This document shows positions 40,240 to 52,707 of a stretch of DNA of 64,000 nucleotides, piece by piece (the first letter of the stretch is position 1; every line of letters starts with the position of its first letter). Source of the stretch: a virus; IMG/VR virus record IMGVR_UViG_3300043392_000054, positions 1-64,000 of that record. The stretch is one strand, 5' to 3'. The notes beneath the pieces are model-generated. The model ran no database searches, had not been told where the DNA came from, and saw only the letters and a program-made list of their open reading frames with translations. The position numbers were made by a program, and so were the translations under genes.

Positions 40240-40539
40240 ATGAATATATTAGAACAAGCTAATAAAATTATTAATGAGCGTTCTGAAGAAAAAGAACGTC
40301 AATATGGTCCATTCGAAGAAGGTATGCGTAGAGCTGCCCAAATCGCCAGCGGTATGACTGGTAAAGATTTCACAGGAAGTGATATGTATGCTGCGCTAGT
40401 TGCATTAAAATTAAGCCGTCACTCTTACAACTACAAACAAGATAACTTATTAGATGCAGTAGCTTATTTAGGTGCTCTTGATAATTACGTTGAAAAATTT
40501 GGTTATAAAGAAACCGAAAAACCTGTTACTAATGAATAA
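40240..40539 (+). CDS. DUF6378-like small phage protein (99 aa)
   Basis: Helical protein with the pattern ERSEEKERQYGPFEEGM, AAQIASGMTGKDFTGSDMY, AALVALKLSRHSYNYKQDN, LLDAVAYLGALDNYVEK, which I recognise as the DUF6378 type common in tailed phages: a short all-alpha domain with conserved Glu, Lys and Asp, distantly like MazG/nucleotide pyrophosphohydrolases. A nucleotide-pool role is plausible in this neighbourhood. The next gene begins within its last codons. Confidence 0.65.
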   Translation: MNILEQANKIINERSEEKERQYGPFEEGMRRAAQIASGMTGKDFTGSDMYAALVALKLSRHSYNYKQDNLLDAVAYLGALDNYVEKFGYKETEKPVTNE

Positions 40540-41611
40540 TCAAGAGTTTAAGTATTTTACAGACTATGTTACTGATAAAGATGCTAAAATCGGTATTTCA
40601 GCTCTTGTTGGTAAATTAAGCCCTAAAATCAGTTCACACAAATCAGCATGGTGTTTTATGCTTGCAAATCAATTAAGAAATGCAGGTTTTAAATACGTTG
40701 ATGTTATTACTACAACTGAAATCGAATGGAATAATTATGATGTTATTCTAATTGACCATGGTATGGAATTTAAAGGTAACTTCAATATTTTTGGAGGAGC
40801 TAACGATGATTTGTACCATCAACTAATTCGTATTAAAAGCAATGTTAAGATGTATAGTTTACATCATGATATGCCATGTATTGGTGCTTTAATCGAACAG
40901 CGTTTAAAAACAGGCACTGACTTATTTAAAACTTTAGAGCAAGATATTGATTTAATTAAAGATATTTGTGCAAATAATATTCCTAGAATAGACCACATTG
41001 AAAAGACAGATAAACTTTGTTTTGGTGATTCTCACTCATTTGGCATGTACCAAGCAGGTTATATGTGTCAGCGTCATGATGGTTTAACAATGCATGGAGC
41101 TCTTAAAAGAGGTTTAGATTCTTATGTATATCCATGGATTAAAACATTAACGTGTTATATGGGTAATATTGATGTTAGACATCATCTTATGAGACAACCT
41201 AATCCTAAAAATGCAGTTGAAATCATGATGAAAAATTATGAACAACAACTTAAAGCGTTACAAGAAAATGGTGTTACTAATATCGAACTAGTTCATGTTT
41301 TACCTATAGAAAATGAATCAAGAGTTTTACCAAAAACAGGGTACTATAAAGATACACCTTTTTATGGAACTTGGTTAGAGCGTACACAACTATCAAAGGA
41401 AATTAATAATGCAATTGACCTAATGTGTGAAAAAAATAAATGGAAAGTGTATAAGCACCCAGACGTTTATTTTAATGATAAAGGTGAATTGACATTTGAT
41501 GTAATGGAACAGCCTAAATCAGTACACATTTCAAGAGAATTTTACAGATGGGATATGGAAGCTAATTGTCCTAATAAGAAATTAGAAAAGAAAGTTACAT
41601 CTTTGTTTTAA
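40532..41611 (+). CDS. SGNH/GDSL-hydrolase-like protein with C-terminal SLF tail
   Basis: The ATG at 40532 overlaps the previous gene by eight bases and is preferred to 40472; this gives 359 aa. CFGDSHSFG near residue 163 is SGNH block I with the nucleophile Ser, and MGNIDVRHHL near 209 matches the G-x-ID-x-R-x-H form of block III. A C-terminal His in KSVHISREFYRW may complete the site. Such enzymes hydrolyse or transfer acyl or glycosyl esters. In a cassette with PLP- and transferase-like genes it might trim or transfer a group on a modified base. The protein ends KKVTSLF, resembling clamp-binding tails. Substrate unknown. Confidence 0.5.
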   Translation: MNNQEFKYFTDYVTDKDAKIGISALVGKLSPKISSHKSAWCFMLANQLRNAGFKYVDVITTTEIEWNNYDVILIDHGMEFKGNFNIFGGANDDLYHQLIRIKSNVKMYSLHHDMPCIGALIEQRLKTGTDLFKTLEQDIDLIKDICANNIPRIDHIEKTDKLCFGDSHSFGMYQAGYMCQRHDGLTMHGALKRGLDSYVYPWIKTLTCYMGNIDVRHHLMRQPNPKNAVEIMMKNYEQQLKALQENGVTNIELVHVLPIENESRVLPKTGYYKDTPFYGTWLERTQLSKEINNAIDLMCEKNKWKVYKHPDVYFNDKGELTFDVMEQPKSVHISREFYRWDMEANCPNKKLEKKVTSLF

Positions 41612-41616
41612 GATAA

Positions 41617-42840
41617 ATGAAAATACAAACTACAAAGTATTACGAAGAATTTTTACATTATTTTGACCTTGCAACAAGACAACAAGCTCTTTGTAATTTA
41701 GGGACTGTTGGATATATGGAAAGCAATATGGGAGATGCTCTAATGGAGAACATTGAGTTATACGATGTTGTTGAACGTAAATTTGCAGGCTTTTCTCAAA
41801 TCGTAAATGACATTTTTTATGGTTGGACTCCAGAACATCCATATTGGGAAAAAATGAATGCAGGAATTCATACCTCTCAAAGAGAAGAAGTTGCAAAAAA
41901 TTGGACTGGAAAACAACAGATTTTTGGTTTAGAAGAATGGCTTTATCTTTTTATCTTACATAGAGTAACGGGTTCGGGTATTAATTATGCAACAAAACCT
42001 TCTGGTTACCATAACACTCTCTTGTTTCATTTGCATGAATGTGATACAATAGAACAAATGTGTGAAGTTGTTAAATCTCATCAATATCCTTTTTATACTT
42101 CAGTTGGTTATCAGTTTCCAGCTTTTCCTAAACCACCAGAAAATCAAACCAATACAGAAGATTTATTTGTTGGTATGACTGGTTTTTCTAATGAAGTAAC
42201 ATACACTTATAAAAGAGGTGGAGATTATTACTTATGTGAATTTGCACCAAGATTAGCTAGAGACTTAGCAACTTATTTAAGAACTGGTGAAAAGAAACAA
42301 CTTAGAGAATTAGGTGAATGGTTATTTCAATGGAACTATGATAACGGTTTAAGAGCTTATAGGTTTCAATATGCAGCAGTTATTGCAGATATTGCAGATT
42401 GGTACCCAGAATATGTTGTTAGAGAATCTATGTTTTATTATGGTACAAATGCAGTAGAATGTATTGGTTATCTAGCAGACCCAGAAGGTGGTAAAGGTAA
42501 TAAAAAAGGTGAAGAATTTTTAGATGCAGTAATGACTAAAATCTATAATGATACGGGTTCTTTGCCATATAATGCAGAAGATGTTGCATGCGACTATATT
42601 CGTTGGATTGAAAACTACTTAAGACCAGGAAAAGATTATGACCATGTAGATATGGATAATGTTTGGAATAGTAGCTCAATAAAAGACCACCCATTTGGTA
42701 GACAAAAGGCAATGTTAGACTTAGGTATAGTTAAAACATTTAACGGTTTGACTGCTCATCCATCAGATGATAAAATTTTAGTAGAAGCTGGGTTAACAGT
42801 TGAAAAATATAAAGAGATGGTTAAAACACTATACAAATAA
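41617..42840 (+). CDS. Helical amino acid:DNA transferase / thymine pyrophosphorylase-like protein (407 aa)
   Basis: All-alpha protein. Key stretches are GTVGYMESNMGDAL, FAGFSQIVNDIFYGWTPEHP, YLFILHRVTGSGINYATKP, GYHNTLLFHLH and LRAYRFQYAAVIADIADWYP. RVTGSG...KPxGYxN and the conserved acids resemble, from memory, the HhH/glycosylase-like AADT and aGPT-pyrophosphorylase families proposed to attach amino acids or polyamines to 5-(pyrophospho)hydroxymethyl-deoxyuridine in phage DNA. The next two genes fit the same idea. Its stop overlaps the next start (TAATG). No kinase or hydroxymethylase is in the window, so the family call needs a profile search. Confidence 0.4.
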   Translation: MKIQTTKYYEEFLHYFDLATRQQALCNLGTVGYMESNMGDALMENIELYDVVERKFAGFSQIVNDIFYGWTPEHPYWEKMNAGIHTSQREEVAKNWTGKQQIFGLEEWLYLFILHRVTGSGINYATKPSGYHNTLLFHLHECDTIEQMCEVVKSHQYPFYTSVGYQFPAFPKPPENQTNTEDLFVGMTGFSNEVTYTYKRGGDYYLCEFAPRLARDLATYLRTGEKKQLRELGEWLFQWNYDNGLRAYRFQYAAVIADIADWYPEYVVRESMFYYGTNAVECIGYLADPEGGKGNKKGEEFLDAVMTKIYNDTGSLPYNAEDVACDYIRWIENYLRPGKDYDHVDMDNVWNSSSIKDHPFGRQKAMLDLGIVKTFNGLTAHPSDDKILVEAGLTVEKYKEMVKTLYK

Positions 42841-43892
42841 TGAATACATTGTTAGAAGATAATTTTATAAGACCAGATGCTTGCGAATTACCAAAGGCAA
42901 AAAAGAAGTATCAACAAGTCGAATCTTTATTTGAAGATGAAGGAGTTCATTATACCAATATTGAATATCCAAATACTTCTGAGGTTAAAATGAAAAATGG
43001 TAAACCCATTGAATCTTGGATGAAAGATTGGACTCAAGAAGAACGCTTTGATAAATTCTTTGAGTTTTGCGAAGCTTTTGATAAAAGACAAGACAAATTA
43101 TTAGCTGAAGATTATCAAATATTTTCACATAGATTACATTGGCATGAACATCCTTTTTGTGATTTAATGCAAAATGTGACAGACCCAATGAAACGACTTT
43201 GGTATACTCTAGTATTTTCATTTACTAATGAGCATTGGGGAACTTTAACAATGTTAATTAATGAAGGTGAAGAAGCTCTCAGAAAGCATTTTAAAGATAA
43301 CCGTCACGCTCGCAATGACTTGTTTCAGATATACTATCCTAAAGGCACAGATGTTAAGGAGTGGCTTTTATGGGGTCCCAAGAAAGCAGCTGAAAAAATG
43401 CATCATGTTTTAGAGAATTTAGACCGTCCATATACAATGATGGAATTTGCTAAAATCATGGAGAAGTATTTTAAAGAAGACCAAGATTTTAGAAGTCCTT
43501 TATACCCATGTAAAAATGCAGCTAGATATTTAGCTATGGCATACCCACATTTAATAAATCCAGAAACACCTTTATATGGTGGAACAGGACACTTTGACGG
43601 TATGCAACAAATTTTTAGTGGCTCTAATGTTAATGGTAAAGTTAAATACACTATTGGTAAAAATGGTGAATTTATCGCTGAGAATAAATATGCTGAGTTA
43701 TGGTTAGAACAAATGGAAACTTTAGTTAATCATCCTAAGAATCCAATGACTAGTCAAAAATGGTTAAATGTAGAAGATAAAACATGTTTCTTTTATAAGC
43801 ATATAGCTATTTCACATGGTGTTAAATCACCAACCAAAAGAATACCATATACCTGGATATTTCCAGAATCGTTTTCACTTAAAAAAGATTAA
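42840..43892 (+). CDS. Second helical transferase/pyrophosphorylase-like protein (350 aa)
   Basis: Coupled to the previous gene by TAATG. All-alpha with segments ERFDKFFEFCEAFDKRQDK, IFSHRLHWHEHPFCDLMQ, FRSPLYPCKNAARYLAMAYP and GGTGHFDGMQQIF. The K-N-A-A-R-Y helix and the GTGHxxGxxxIF turn fit the HhH-glycosylase-like fold suggested for thymine hypermodification enzymes. It is probably a partner or distant relative of its 407-aa neighbour rather than a copy, since identity is low. The two may act on successive steps or form one complex. Function is inferred from fold impression and neighbours. Confidence 0.4.
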   Translation: MNTLLEDNFIRPDACELPKAKKKYQQVESLFEDEGVHYTNIEYPNTSEVKMKNGKPIESWMKDWTQEERFDKFFEFCEAFDKRQDKLLAEDYQIFSHRLHWHEHPFCDLMQNVTDPMKRLWYTLVFSFTNEHWGTLTMLINEGEEALRKHFKDNRHARNDLFQIYYPKGTDVKEWLLWGPKKAAEKMHHVLENLDRPYTMMEFAKIMEKYFKEDQDFRSPLYPCKNAARYLAMAYPHLINPETPLYGGTGHFDGMQQIFSGSNVNGKVKYTIGKNGEFIAENKYAELWLEQMETLVNHPKNPMTSQKWLNVEDKTCFFYKHIAISHGVKSPTKRIPYTWIFPESFSLKKD

Positions 43893-44777
43893 ATGTCACA
43901 TAATAATCACACAAAAAGCAGTTATAATCAAGACCTTAATTTAGCTTATCCTAATAGAGATTCTTGGTTAGAATTAGCTGGAGATTGGAAAGACCCATTT
44001 CCTGCACCTATTATTAAAGAACATGATGGATTTAATGTAGTTAGAGAAGATTTAATGGGCTTTGGTTCTAAATGTCGTTTTGGCGATATTTTAGTTTCAA
44101 CTTGTCAATCAGATACATTAGTCTATGTGCAACCTAGATATGGTTTTGCTGGAATTTCATTGGCTTATTTAGCTAAAAAATACAATAAGAAATTAGTTCT
44201 TTTTAGTCCAAGCCAAAAAGAAATTTCAGACCATCAAGCTATTTGTATTGAAAGAGGAGCAGATATGAGATTTCGTAGAATTGCTGCTATGCCAAATCTT
44301 AATAAGATTGCTGCAGATTGGGCAAGAGAAAATAATGCGTTCTTTATTCCATTAGGGTTAAGACACGAATTAGTTACAGCAGCTGCAGTAAAAGTTGCGT
44401 ATGACTTAGCACAAGAACATGGAGAACCTAAAGAAGTTTGGCATGCTATTTCAACAGGAGTTTTAGGTAGAGCTTTACAAATTGCATGGCCTAATGCAGA
44501 ATTTAATGGAGTAGCAGTCGCTAGAAACATTAAAGATGGTGAAAGAGGTAGAGCAACTATTTGGTCACATCCAAAAGAATTTAGTCAAAACGTATCAGAT
44601 GAGTTTATACCTCCATTTCCAAGTGCATTAAATTATGACGCTAAAGCTTGGGAATTTATGGTCAAGCATGGTAGAGAAGGAGCTTGGTTTTGGAATGTAG
44701 GAGGAAATCCTAAACCAGAAAGTGAAGAGACTAAACTACTTACAAATTCTCAAAGAGAATGGGGCGAAATAAGATAA
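43893..44777 (+). CDS. Fold-type II PLP-dependent enzyme (tryptophan synthase beta / desulfhydrase-like)
   Basis: 294 aa, beginning directly after the previous stop. FGSKCRFGDIL places Lys60 as the PLP Schiff base, as in the GGNKxRKL site of ACC deaminase and D-cysteine desulfhydrase. VQPRYGFAGISLAYLAKKY corresponds to the substrate-binding Asn-loop region, ISDHQAICIERGADM to the lid helix, and WHAISTGVLGRALQIAWP to the Gly-rich phosphate-binding loop. It should use an amino acid substrate for beta- or gamma-elimination/replacement. In the cassette it may modify an amino acid attached to a base. Shorter than free-living relatives (~320-400 aa). The cofactor call is firm, the substrate is not. 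Confidence 0.65.
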   Translation: MSHNNHTKSSYNQDLNLAYPNRDSWLELAGDWKDPFPAPIIKEHDGFNVVREDLMGFGSKCRFGDILVSTCQSDTLVYVQPRYGFAGISLAYLAKKYNKKLVLFSPSQKEISDHQAICIERGADMRFRRIAAMPNLNKIAADWARENNAFFIPLGLRHELVTAAAVKVAYDLAQEHGEPKEVWHAISTGVLGRALQIAWPNAEFNGVAVARNIKDGERGRATIWSHPKEFSQNVSDEFIPPFPSALNYDAKAWEFMVKHGREGAWFWNVGGNPKPESEETKLLTNSQREWGEIR

Positions 44778-44838: not shown

Positions 44839-45306
44839 ATGGCAAATATAGACAATGAATGCAAAGACTTAGAAGTTAATGACTTCTATGACCAGTCGGC
44901 AACACACTTAGCAGATATTATGGAGCATCAAAAAGAGATGCAAGAGAAAACTTATGGTATTAAGTTTGAAGATATGACTATTCGCGAAGTAATGAATTTT
45001 TGGCATGTAAATACACATGCTGTAATTGATGAGATTCATGAAATGACAGATGCTTTAGGCGGTATTAAAGATGGTGATGGTAATGCTGTTTGGAAATATT
45101 GGAAAAAAGCTCATACTAAATATGAGACTATGAAAATTTCAGACCTTTCAGAAGGAGATAAGAAAGAACTCTATATGGAATGGGTTGACATCTTACATTT
45201 CTTTATTAATTATGCAGCTTCAATTGGCTTAGACGCCAAAACAGCTTATAATTATTATTTTACAAAAGCAGCAGAGAATAAAGCGCGTCAGGCCAGAGGT
45301 TATTAA
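44839..45306 (+). CDS. Dimeric all-alpha dUTPase (MazG-like superfamily)
   Basis: 155 aa. Helical NTP-pyrophosphohydrolase pattern: THAVIDEIHEMTDALGG (ExxE), LYMEWVDILHFFINYAASIG (ExxD with HF), and the ending YYFTKAAENKARQARGY, matching the N-x-x-RQ-x-GY end of dimeric dUTPases. It converts dUTP to dUMP and PPi, preventing uracil incorporation and supplying dUMP for thymidylate or 5-hydroxymethyl-dUMP synthesis, which suits the neighbouring modification genes. A 61-base gap with A/T-rich DNA precedes it. Confidence 0.75.
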   Translation: MANIDNECKDLEVNDFYDQSATHLADIMEHQKEMQEKTYGIKFEDMTIREVMNFWHVNTHAVIDEIHEMTDALGGIKDGDGNAVWKYWKKAHTKYETMKISDLSEGDKKELYMEWVDILHFFINYAASIGLDAKTAYNYYFTKAAENKARQARGY

Positions 45307-45323
45307 TATTAAATAAATACAAA

Positions 45324-46745
45324 ATGCTATTAGACATTGAACAGAAAGAAAAAGAAGTTATCGTATCATATTATAATAAAGAGGGAGAAGTAGCATTTAA
45401 GCGTTATCCAATTGCGCAATTTAAAAATTGGCATGTATGCAATGCATCTGATAAAGATGCAAATCAAAAATTCAAAAACTGGGATGGTAGAGGAGTTAAG
45501 CTATTACCTGGCAAACAATTTAATAAGTTTTCATTAGTGTATTTCATGGATAATTTACCTGAAAAGGATAAAGAAGAAATCTATGAGTTTAATATGCCGA
45601 AAACTTATTTTATAGATATTGAAACCGAAATCGTAGACGGTTTCCCTAAAGCTGAAGATGCTAAGTCTAGAATTTTAGCATTTTCAATTATTACCCCTAA
45701 TAAAAAAGCAATCGTACTAGGATTAGAAGACTTAGCGTCTGATAAGATTAAAAAAATTGAAGACGATACCAATGAGTACTTTAAGCAATTTGGGGATGAA
45801 TGGACTTTTCAATATATGAAGTTTAAAACAGAATATGATATGTTATATACATTTCTGTTTAAATTAATGCCTAAGTTTCCAATGATGACAGGTTGGAACT
45901 TTATTAATTATGACTGGAAATATATCGTAAATCGTTGCAAGCGTTTACAGATTGATTTAACTGATGCAGCAGTTACAAAATCTCTAGATAAAGAGGATTC
46001 AAGACCACTTCACATGGGTATTCTTGACTACATGCAATTATATGATAAATATGACCGTTCGGTTAAAGTTAAAGAATCTAACACCTTAGATTTTGTTTCT
46101 AGTCAAATCTTAAATATGAACAAAATCAAATATACTGGTTCATTACAAGATTTATATCGAGATAATTTTACAAAATATATTTACTATAACGTTGTCGATT
46201 CAGTTTTGGTTTATTATATTGACCAAAAAATTAAATCAATGGAGGTATTAATTACCTTAGCTACTATAGCAAAAATGCCTTTATATAAAGCAGCATCTCC
46301 AGTAGCTTCAACAGAAGCCCTAATCGCTAGAAAATTAGTAGATGACGGTAAACGTATTGGTACTGAAGCTAGAGAAGATAATAAAAAAGATTCTAAATAT
46401 GCTGGAGCATTTGTTAAGGAACCTATTGTTGGTTTCTATGAAGGAGTTTCAGCGTTTGACTTTGCATCCCTATACCCATCGATTATGCGACAATTTAATA
46501 TTTCGCCAGATGCATTTATAGAAAAAGTTCAACCTTCTCAAATTGAAGAAAAAAGAAAAGATAAAAATATTATTGTTTGTGAAAATGGAGTAGTTTATAA
46601 TAAAGAAGACTCAATCTTAAAAAAAATATTATCAGATTTATATGGTCAAAGAAAGCATTATAAGAAGCTCTCGTATGAATTTTATACTAAAGCCGAAGAT
46701 TTAAAAAAGAAAATTTTATTAGCTGAAAAACAGATTAATAATTAA
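45324..46745 (+). CDS. 43A: DNA polymerase gp43, N-terminal part (exonuclease and palm motif A)
   Basis: 473 aa, the first half of a family B polymerase. Proofreading motifs are intact: Exo I FIDIETEI near residue 98, Exo II MTGWNFINYDW near 190, Exo III YYNVVDSVLVYYI near 290. Polymerase motif A is FDFASLYPSIMRQ near 378. It ends after LYGQRKHYKKLSYEFYTKAEDLKKKILLAEKQINN, in the first fingers helix. Motifs B and C are missing and occur in the 399-aa protein at 51.5 kb. No intein or intron sequence is visible at the end. The two parts together (872 aa) match full-length T4 gp43 (898 aa), so the enzyme is probably reassembled from two chains. Confidence 0.88.
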   Translation: MLLDIEQKEKEVIVSYYNKEGEVAFKRYPIAQFKNWHVCNASDKDANQKFKNWDGRGVKLLPGKQFNKFSLVYFMDNLPEKDKEEIYEFNMPKTYFIDIETEIVDGFPKAEDAKSRILAFSIITPNKKAIVLGLEDLASDKIKKIEDDTNEYFKQFGDEWTFQYMKFKTEYDMLYTFLFKLMPKFPMMTGWNFINYDWKYIVNRCKRLQIDLTDAAVTKSLDKEDSRPLHMGILDYMQLYDKYDRSVKVKESNTLDFVSSQILNMNKIKYTGSLQDLYRDNFTKYIYYNVVDSVLVYYIDQKIKSMEVLITLATIAKMPLYKAASPVASTEALIARKLVDDGKRIGTEAREDNKKDSKYAGAFVKEPIVGFYEGVSAFDFASLYPSIMRQFNISPDAFIEKVQPSQIEEKRKDKNIIVCENGVVYNKEDSILKKILSDLYGQRKHYKKLSYEFYTKAEDLKKKILLAEKQINN

Positions 46746-50761: not shown

Positions 50762-51508
50762 ATGAAAGTAACAATCTCGAAAGTTGACCAGAACTCGTTT
50801 ATCACGTTCGTCAATCGCCTCAAAGTTATCGACTCATTCATTTACTTTAAGATTAAAGATGGAAGAGTTATCTCGTCTGCTTATTTGCCACAGCGCGATG
50901 CAGTAAAGCACCACATTGTTCCAGTTGATGAAATTTTTGTATTAGACTCAAAAATTGAAACGACTAAAGAGCTTAAGGTTGCCTTTTTTGATGCTGCTAA
51001 GTTAATCGAAGCATTTAAACAATTTGAATATGATGCTATTCAAGCTGAAATCGAATTCGTTGAAAATGAAGATGATTTCGTTGCATCGTCATTCAAGATT
51101 TTTAATGATGAATTAGAAATTACATTAGCTTGTTCAGAACCATCTTTAGGTTTCAAAGACTTAACAGAGTCTCAATTACAAACTATCTTTAATACAGATG
51201 GAGCTGATGTTACATTTGATATGTCGCATATCGAAATTTCTAAAATCAAGTCATTATTTGGTTTAGATAAAGATGAAACCTTTACAATTTCATCATCTAA
51301 AGAAGGTGTACGCATTAAAGGTAAATCTTATAATAAATTAATCAATACTACTAGCGCTGCTAAATCAAATGCAGTTATTTACAAGAAGTATTTAAACCTT
51401 TTTGACAAAGAAGATTATGCAGCAAATGTATTCTCAAATCGCGTAGTGTTACGCTCTAAAGATTCAAATACATTGTTAACAATCGCAACTTGTCAATCAG
51501 CTGATTAA
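50762..51508 (+). CDS. 45: Sliding clamp gp45
   Basis: 248 aa (T4 gp45 228). Two similar alpha/beta halves: MKVTISKVDQNSFITFVNRL with IVPVDEIFVLDSKI strands, and VTFDMSHIEISKIKSLFGL with later TFTISSSKEGVRIKGK strands. Fits the gp45/PCNA fold and the usual neighbourhood. It tethers polymerase to DNA and, in T4, activates late transcription with gp33 and gp55. The stop overlaps the start of the second polymerase part (TAATG), so clamp and polymerase C-part are coupled. Preceded by CATATAGAATATCTAAAC, a possible weak promoter. Confidence 0.75.
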   Translation: MKVTISKVDQNSFITFVNRLKVIDSFIYFKIKDGRVISSAYLPQRDAVKHHIVPVDEIFVLDSKIETTKELKVAFFDAAKLIEAFKQFEYDAIQAEIEFVENEDDFVASSFKIFNDELEITLACSEPSLGFKDLTESQLQTIFNTDGADVTFDMSHIEISKIKSLFGLDKDETFTISSSKEGVRIKGKSYNKLINTTSAAKSNAVIYKKYLNLFDKEDYAANVFSNRVVLRSKDSNTLLTIATCQSAD

Positions 51509-52707
51509 TGATAGAAGAATTATTAAATAAACCAGAATCAGATTTAACACTTGATGAAATGAAAACCTTGGCAGAATTCTACTCGCGAGAATCTGCCAAG
51601 TTTACAGCTTATGAACAAGCAGTTAAATTAATGCTTAACTCTATTTATGGTGCATTTGGTAACCAGTGGTTTCACTTCTTTAATATCGATATTGCTGAAT
51701 CTATCACATTACAAGGTAAAAATGCTATCTTATATGCTGAAAAGATTTTAAACAAATATATTCAAGAATTCTTTTATAAGGATACTGAATTACATAAGAA
51801 ATTAAATATTAAGGTTAAAGGTCCAACACATAAACCTGCAGTTATCTACATCGATACTGATTCAAACTATGTTCAGTTTCAGGACATGTATGAATCAATT
51901 CAATGGTTAGATGAAACACAGAAGATGGACATCGTAACCTTTATTTTAACAGTTTATGATATTCGTTTAAAGGATTATATTGTTAAAGCATTAGACAAAT
52001 ATGCAGATGGCACAAATACAGATTCATTCTTAGTGTTTGAACTAGAATCAGTAGCATACTCTGGCATTTGGATGGCTAAGAAAAAGTATTTACAAAATTT
52101 AGCATGGGACGATAAGATTTCAACAGCTGAAAGACATAAAATGCTTAAGAAGGTTAAAACAGTTGGATTCGATACTATTCAATCTTCAACACCAACCTTT
52201 GCTAGAAAAAAATTAGCAGAAGCATTACAAATTCTTTTTGAAAAGAAGCCAACACCTGAAACATTAATGGTAATAATTTCATTCTTAAAAAAGGCTAAGA
52301 AAGAATTTAAGATGGCAAGCGTTGATGATATTACATTCAATAAGAGAACTAATAATATTGAAAAATATATTGTTGATGACCACGGTACATTTGAGTTTGG
52401 CTTAAAATGTCCGCCTAATGTTAAAGCTGCTGGATTTTATAATTACCTAATGAATAATAATTCAAAATACAAATCTAAGTATAGAATGATTAATAACGGT
52501 GAAAAGCTAAAAATATACCACACAACACACAATATTTGTGAAGTTTTTGGCTATCTTCCAGGAGACCATCCTTATGAATTTGCACCTGAAATAGATTATG
52601 AAACTCAATTTGAAAAATGTATTATTGACCCGTTAAATAGAGTTTTAGATTGCGTAGGTTTACAAACATTAAATAGAAATTTAATTTATTCATCAACATT
52701 ATTTTAA
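51508..52707 (+). CDS. 43B: DNA polymerase gp43, C-terminal part (motifs B and C, thumb)
   Basis: 399 aa. It starts in the fingers with a short new N-terminus (MIEELLNKPESDLTLDE). Motif B is KLMLNSIYGAFGN at 40-52, motif C YIDTDSNYV near 116, and the KKxY motif WMAKKKYLQNL near 185. Thumb sequence follows, ending RNLIYSSTLF, a hydrophobic tail like the clamp-binding end of T4 gp43 (SLDFLFG). All polymerase residues missing from 43A are here. Both parts appear under selection, with no frameshift or stop. The parts are 4762 bases apart and should associate in trans. Confidence 0.88.
   Translation: MIEELLNKPESDLTLDEMKTLAEFYSRESAKFTAYEQAVKLMLNSIYGAFGNQWFHFFNIDIAESITLQGKNAILYAEKILNKYIQEFFYKDTELHKKLNIKVKGPTHKPAVIYIDTDSNYVQFQDMYESIQWLDETQKMDIVTFILTVYDIRLKDYIVKALDKYADGTNTDSFLVFELESVAYSGIWMAKKKYLQNLAWDDKISTAERHKMLKKVKTVGFDTIQSSTPTFARKKLAEALQILFEKKPTPETLMVIISFLKKAKKEFKMASVDDITFNKRTNNIEKYIVDDHGTFEFGLKCPPNVKAAGFYNYLMNNNSKYKSKYRMINNGEKLKIYHTTHNICEVFGYLPGDHPYEFAPEIDYETQFEKCIIDPLNRVLDCVGLQTLNRNLIYSSTLF

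Follow-up and report, generated by a model that had tools for sequence, protein, structure and literature searches.

Here we describe a cassette of four genes on the + strand (positions 40532–44777) in the window, by which we mean the whole 64,000-nucleotide stretch of viral DNA that was analysed (positions 1–64,000 of the IMG/VR record IMGVR_UViG_3300043392_000054). The complete record, referred to as G000, has 182,829 bases and carries structural and replication genes of T4-like type. The cassette encodes an SGNH-like protein, two helical proteins named P407 and P350, and a fold-type II pyridoxal phosphate (PLP) enzyme. It very probably serves the hypermodification of DNA bases, with cytosine as the probable target, in a form that differs from the known phage systems. 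On balance we favour the reading that this T4-like phage hypermodifies cytosine and that the four genes carry out those steps of the pathway which follow replication, the SGNH protein replacing the kinase; the detailed chemistry is offered tentatively.

The four genes follow each other closely. The gene for the SGNH-like protein (359 aa, 40532–41611) is followed after 5 bases by the gene for P407 (407 aa, 41617–42840). The start of P350 (350 aa, 42840–43892) overlaps the stop of P407 (distance –1), and the gene for the PLP enzyme (294 aa, 43893–44777) starts at the base after P350 (distance 0). Compared with the closest relative (L012), the ratios of nonsynonymous to synonymous substitution rates (dN/dS) are 0.043, 0.058, 0.042, and 0.094 for SGNH, P407, P350, and the PLP enzyme, respectively, with dS being 0.5–1.3. 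These low values show strong purifying selection, so that all four genes encode functional proteins. The tight coupling of the four genes, stated in the original prediction, is confirmed by the open reading frames, by the dN/dS values of 0.04–0.09, and by the 42 conserved loci described below.

Neither P407 nor P350 was matched by tblastn in 50,697 GenBank phages. Exact-pattern scans of IMG/VR confirmed 278 loci with P350 and gave at least 565 loci with P407; 127 distinct P407 DNA sequences were obtained, and after removal of duplicate DNA 42 distinct loci remain that are flanked on each side by 5 kb or more. In these flanked loci P407 is always accompanied by the PLP enzyme (42/42), nearly always by SGNH (41/42), and less regularly by P350 (26/42). 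Five gene orders were seen: SGNH–P407–P350–PLP, SGNH–P407–PLP, P407–P350–PLP–SGNH, P407–P350–SGNH–PLP, and P407–PLP–P350–SGNH. The module lies beside polymerase and ribonucleotide reductase genes in the T4-like clade and beside recA and a helicase in other loci. Since the set is kept together despite rearrangement, it is a functional, mobile module, the core of which is SGNH, P407, and the PLP enzyme, with P350 being optional. The four-gene set is common in uncultured viruses, but no catalogued phage genome has it as a whole, and consequently it may escape isolate-based surveys. A LOG-family nucleotide hydrolase also recurs, either within the cassette, where it separates P350 from PLP, or beside hydroxymethylase or thymidylate synthase (TS) genes (L063:11143-11814; L131:2478-3134; G001 167547-168215).

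The PLP enzyme matches Pfam PALP (PF00291) with an E-value of 7.6e-6, which is below the cut-off, and the PHROGs family phrog_7093, a phage 'threonine dehydratase' family, with 1.7e-39. Profile comparison by hhalign related it to gp52 of phage M6 (prob 95.6, E 1.2e-8). In this alignment Lys60 is paired with the lysine of the M6 motif SKIRG, and the C-terminal motif PFPxxxxYDxKAW...FWN[VI]G is common to both proteins (FWNVG in the window). Lys60, the Schiff-base lysine that the original prediction had named for this fold-type II enzyme, is invariant in 24 sequences, one of them from a Microcystis phage, and the homology to gp52 extends over the catalytic domain. The gene for gp52 is part of the 5-NedU cluster of M6, with the ADDT gene gp51 on one side and radical SAM, HMUDK, and HMUDK_hel genes on the other; by profile, gp51 matches ADDT (E 1.4e-46), gp52 PALP, gp54 HMUDK (E 7.7e-18), and gp55 HMUDK_hel (E 8.1e-56). 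The same subfamily was found in Erythrobacter phage R6L (gp1) and Microcystis phage Mae-JY30 (34–35% identity), where it is fused to, or adjacent to, DNA-methylase-like domains. Judged by these similarities, the PLP enzyme belongs to a subfamily of DNA modification and not to general metabolism. In G004 the thymidylate synthase gene is immediately preceded by the gene of another, cysteine-synthase-like PLP enzyme (L131:581-1474), which could be an amino-acid supplier.

P407 and P350 have no meaningful match in Pfam, PHROGs, or NCBIfam, PF18724 (ADDT) was not matched by any of 30 P407 and 30 P350 members, and a sequence search of the PDB returned nothing for P407, P350, or SGNH. AlphaFold models of both proteins (pLDDT 83.7 each) were compared with BFVD by Foldseek. 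The best match of P350 was an 'amino acid:DNA transferase' of an uncultured phage (A0A6J5LCY1, E 1.4e-33, 57% identity); the named matches were HMUDK_hel of phiRSL1 (E 5.4e-4, prob 1.0) and aGPT-Pplase1 (E 1.6e-3) and, more weakly, HMUDK_hel of phiW-14 (E 0.024) and the SP10 5-hydroxymethyldeoxyuridine (5-hmdU) kinase (E 0.042). The ten best matches all came from the HMUDK_hel/aGPT-pyrophosphorylase superfamily or its unnamed relatives, and the first clearly unrelated protein stood at rank 11 (prob 0.06). The best match of P407 was likewise an 'Amino acid:DNA transferase' (A0A6J5L8T5, E 8.9e-41, 59% identity), followed by two related uncharacterised phage proteins and by the P350-type protein A0A6J5LCY1 (E 3e-3, prob 1.0). 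P407 and P350, linked in this way by fold, are distant structural paralogues. By its model P350 is a structural relative within the HMUDK_hel/AADT/aGPT-pyrophosphorylase superfamily, and P407 is joined to it through the fold of P350. Profile searches of both proteins against AADT and aGPT-pyrophosphorylase had been proposed as a check; sequence profiles gave no match, but the structural comparison did lead to this superfamily, and the proteins were not placed in unrelated metabolic families. The HhH-glycosylase-like motifs formerly ascribed to them were not demonstrable by sequence, and in the structural comparison of P407 such glycosylases appear with low probability only (0.38 for endonuclease III, 0.23 for OGG). 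By eye, a pattern of G-[PT]-[GN] and, some 50–70 residues on, E-x(2-4)-C seems to be common to four proteins: P407 (YGTNA...AEDVAC), P350 (GGTGH...VEDKTC), M6 gp55 (GPG...VEHTLC), and the Aeromonas fusion protein described below (GPG...CEIACC). Together with the homology to M6 gp52, the folds of P350 and P407 support the earlier assignment of the genes to a DNA-base hypermodification cassette.

The label SGNH-like holds at the level of motifs, as the C-terminal half of the first protein contains GDSH (S167) and SVH (H332). Among the members G165, D166, S167, H168, and H332 are invariant or nearly so and D113 is present in at least 90%; the GDSL lipase family (PF00657) was matched weakly, in 5 of 23 members and below the cut-off (best E 0.0038). 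The N-terminal half weakly resembles the N-terminal domain of T4 beta-glucosyltransferase (BGT): PF09198 was matched in 4 of the 23 members (best E 0.0017), with the similarity confined to about 60 N-terminal residues (about 50 in one of these members). The hhalign comparison with BGT (E 8.8e-4, prob 23) places D113 on Asp100 of BGT, a pairing read by eye; in BGT, Asp100 is the base acting on the hydroxyl of 5-hydroxymethylcytosine (5hmC). Both the BGT-like and the GDSL-like matches are suggestive only. With a BGT likeness that is N-terminal only, the protein did not qualify as a full GT-B enzyme with a UDP-glucose site.

More weight attaches to a fusion in T4-like phages that infect Aeromonas: their 795-aa proteins begin with a full-length homologue of SGNH (34% identity, hhalign prob 100) and match HMUDK_hel at the C-terminus (phage 31, E 0.0036; UP87, E 0.0022). 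Aeromonas phages of this group possess a T4-type dCMP hydroxymethylase. The SP10 '5-hmdU DNA kinase' has 637 aa and combines a P-loop kinase and a helical part in one chain. Comparing the SGNH–helical fusion with this kinase–helical fusion, the SGNH protein seems to occupy the place of the kinase. The fusion makes it plausible that SGNH is a new component of hypermodification systems, as had been proposed. The P-loop 5-hmdU kinase (PF18748) was found in 0 of 10 cassette-bearing records, several of which are incomplete. The same ten records contain neither canonical ADDT (PF18724) nor HMUDK_hel (PF18723), both searches working in the controls M6 and phiW-14, and the T4 gp1-type dNMP kinase (PF21448) is absent from six cassette-bearing records. 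No literature was found on SGNH proteins in connection with hydroxymethylcytosine in phages. A distant SGNH homologue, covering the C-terminal half, lies amid ribonucleotide reductase genes in Tenacibaculum phage PTm1 (L313:6557-7576).

Cytosine as the target base is suggested by the hydroxymethylases linked to the cassette. A TS-family gene of cluster c11, 52% identical to T4 gp42, stands beside the cassette in 10 of the 42 loci and in several gene orders. In L049, where the cassette proteins are 74–88% identical to those of the window, it lies about 4 kb downstream. A second type of hydroxymethylase occurs in G001, the closest relative of G000, and in G004 and G006, and directly adjoins SGNH in G006. 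An Asp at the contact to pyrimidine position 4, replacing the Asn of thymidylate synthases, marks dCMP enzymes. All cassette-linked TS-family proteins that were aligned (c11, G001, G004, and G006) have Asp at this position (YRND, LTFD, LQYD), as has gp42 (FRND), whereas Asn is present in the TS of the window phage (LPFN) and in the dUMP hydroxymethylase gp58 of M6 (YGAN). The gene after the cassette (44839–45306, + strand, 155 aa) had been described as a dUTPase. A gene of this kind is indeed there, but its identity has to be corrected to a homologue of the T4 dCTPase/dUTPase gp56 (31% identity over 111 aa, pairwise E 6e-19), an all-alpha NTP pyrophosphatase whose gene regularly follows the cassette within the T4-like clade. 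T4 gp56 removes dCTP and dUTP, and the gp56-like protein is likely to be an accessory that depletes the same nucleotides. With the dCMP-type Asp in the linked hydroxymethylases and the gp56 homologue, the target is most likely 5hmC, a conclusion in which we have moderate confidence.

From these homologies the following pathway can be sketched. A dCMP hydroxymethylase, known from the relatives, would produce hydroxymethyl-dCMP, the gp56-like pyrophosphatase would remove dCTP, and replication would then place 5hmC in the DNA. The BGT-like N-terminal half of SGNH may hold the flipped 5hmC with Asp113 as base, and the SGNH half may transfer an acyl group or something similar, by which 5hmC would be activated or decorated; in this way the protein would do the work that falls to the P-loop kinase in thymidine hypermodification. 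P407 might couple that carbon to a nucleophile, which is probably an amino acid, or might present the base to SGNH. The M6-gp52-type PLP enzyme could tailor the amino acid, and P350, in the about 60% of loci that have it, could add or present a second group. The product would block host nucleases, so that bacterial defences could not cut the DNA. Such a kinase-independent route, in which a BGT/SGNH chimera acylates 5hmC, a new clade of helical transferases swaps the acyl group for an amino acid, and the PLP enzyme finishes the product, is a possibility that we put forward with reserve. As for the predicted pyrimidine with an amino-acid-derived group, the pyrimidine is likely cytosine, and the amino-acid origin is still inferred by analogy, from the homology of the PLP enzyme and the helical proteins.

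Several observations weigh against the proposed cytosine pathway. A hydroxymethylase was not found in G000, where only a true TS was detected, and none was seen in G002, G003, and G005 (123–165 kb, possibly incomplete). When read as circles, G000 and G001 (256 kb) have the same gene order, except that 70 kb of G001 (119.4–189.7 kb) are essentially without counterpart in G000. This stretch contains the hydroxymethylase of G001 (164123-165028) and clpP, which G000 lacks too. G000 is therefore probably incomplete, which accounts for the missing gene. Of the hydroxymethylase and kinase genes that were to be looked for outside the window, the former was found in relatives, and the kinase in none of the ten records. 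Furthermore, hhalign and unfiltered hmmsearch did not significantly link P407 or P350 to the M6 ADDT or HMUDK_hel profiles (PF18723 unmatched); the test is underpowered for these proteins, because it also fails to connect ADDT with HMUDK_hel. A Foldseek search of the PDB with P407 did not match the solved AADT/glycinyltransferase structures 8z2m and 25qc and gave only weak HhH glycosylases. Neither the resemblance to BGT nor the HMUDK_hel matches of the fusion proteins reach the Pfam cut-offs. The SGNH homologue of Aeromonas phage phiAS4, which occurs with UDP-galactopyranose mutase and a possible glycosyltransferase but without P407 or PLP, would also fit a sugar-related role.

The arrangement in phiAS4 leads to an alternative in which cytosine is decorated with a sugar: SGNH would O-acylate or de-acylate a glycan carried by 5hmC, and an aminosugar-like part would be tailored or added by the PLP enzyme and the helical proteins. 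The BGT similarity of the SGNH N-terminus would fit, as would the genes for UDP-galactopyranose mutase and a 358-aa protein, possibly a glycosyltransferase, which precede the SGNH homologue in phiAS4 (L311:1763-5035), the glycosyltransferase-like gene in the SGNH–P407 gap of L288, and the GT2 and UDP-galactopyranose mutase genes that the closest relatives carry between PLP and the dCTPase (L008:14317-15423). However, most loci have no glycosyltransferase inside the module, the PLP and helical proteins are of amino-acid-type pathways, and in G000 the glycosyltransferase–mutase pair is 91 kb away from the cassette (135289-137533; L125:14289-16533). We consider this alternative rather unlikely, and the pair was rejected as a core part, since it occurs in few loci and at this distance in G000. 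The decorations known on 5hmC are sugars or carbamoyl (see also Yang 2021, PMC8670742). G000 also encodes a NodU/TobZ-like carbamoyltransferase (131438-133105; L125:10438-12105; 555 aa, recognised by eye) beside short GSCFA/SGNH-like proteins. Phage carbamoyltransferases make 5-carbamoyloxymethylcytosine; action of this enzyme on 5hmC may or may not apply.

The thymidine pathways of ViI, M6, and phiW-14 had served as the template for the original prediction. Applied here, a host or unseen dUMP hydroxymethylase would lead to 5-hmdU, to which an amino-acid-derived group would be added. The homology of the PLP and helical proteins, known from thymidine pathways only, stands, and a true TS is present in the genome; the base, however, does not fit, as every cassette-linked TS-family protein that occurs besides the TS and was aligned has the dCMP-type Asp, the 5-hmdU kinase is missing from all ten records, and the gp56 homologue and the BGT-like region indicate 5hmC. 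The TS of G000 (435 aa, 127846-129153; L125:6846-8153) is unusually long, its conserved core being broken by additional residues, and was rejected as a dUMP hydroxymethylase, because its motif LGLPFNIASY is that of an ordinary dTMP synthase. Thymidine is thus an unlikely target. It is still less probable that free nucleotides or metabolites are the substrates, for example in precursor modification or amino-acid metabolism, instead of polymer DNA. The cassette does lie amid genes of nucleotide metabolism (dCTPase, ribonucleotide reductase, dCMP deaminase, LOG-family hydrolase), and PF00291 is a general metabolic fold, but the PLP subfamily motif recurs in M6 gp52, the related PLP proteins of R6L and Mae-JY30 are fused with DNA-methylase-like domains or lie beside them, and the helical fold belongs to a DNA-modification superfamily. 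A chance juxtaposition of unrelated genes, for which nothing speaks except two proteins without Pfam names, is already refuted by the module being kept in 42 distinct loci with rearranged order and under strong purifying selection.

In the T4-like clade SGNH is directly preceded by a gene for a 99-aa DUF6378 protein (40240–40539, + strand; PF19905, E 3.5e-11), which is kept as a neighbour in 62 loci. Downstream of the cassette region the family B DNA polymerase is encoded by two genes (45324–46745 and 51508–52707) about 4.8 kb apart, and in between lie a ribonucleotide reductase, a PhyH-like gene, and the sliding clamp.

The known amino-acid-type phage hypermodifications (5-NedU, 5-NeOmdU, and putrescinylthymine) sit on thymine (Flodman 2019, PMC6449724). 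Thymidine-type tailoring enzymes and dCMP-type hydroxymethylases in one cassette therefore predict a new class of modified cytosine. If this is true, the cassette would be a cytosine counterpart to thymidine hypermodification, widespread among uncultured viruses. Sequencing chemistries based on bisulfite or on enzymes may be disturbed by the modification, and the cassette may supply new enzymes for the labelling of 5hmC in DNA.

Of the known systems, the M6 cluster (gp51 ADDT, gp52 PLP, gp53 radical SAM, gp54 HMUDK, gp55 HMUDK_hel, gp58 TS-family) resembles the cassette in its PLP homologue with the same C-terminal motif, in helical proteins of the same fold superfamily, and in a TS-family hydroxymethylase in the phage. 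In contrast to M6, the cassette-bearing records searched contain no kinase, radical SAM, canonical ADDT, or HMUDK_hel, with SGNH being present instead, and the hydroxymethylases linked to the cassette are of dCMP type. With the 5hmC pathway of T4 (gp42, gp56, beta-glucosyltransferase) the cassette shares the gp42-like enzymes of the relatives (52% identity), the adjacent gp56-like gene, and the BGT-like region of SGNH; unlike in T4, there is no recognised glucosyltransferase in the cassette, and decoration would be carried out by the SGNH, helical, and PLP proteins. The PLP enzymes of R6L (gp1) and Mae-JY30 are of the same subfamily; they are fused with, or encoded next to, DNA-methylase-like and ParB-annotated proteins, and SGNH, P407, and P350 are absent there. 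In the Aeromonas 31/44RR-type 795-aa protein and in ORF27 of phiAS4 the N-terminal region is homologous to the full SGNH protein, with no P407 or PLP homologue found in these phages, and the 31-type protein ends in the HMUDK_hel-like domain.

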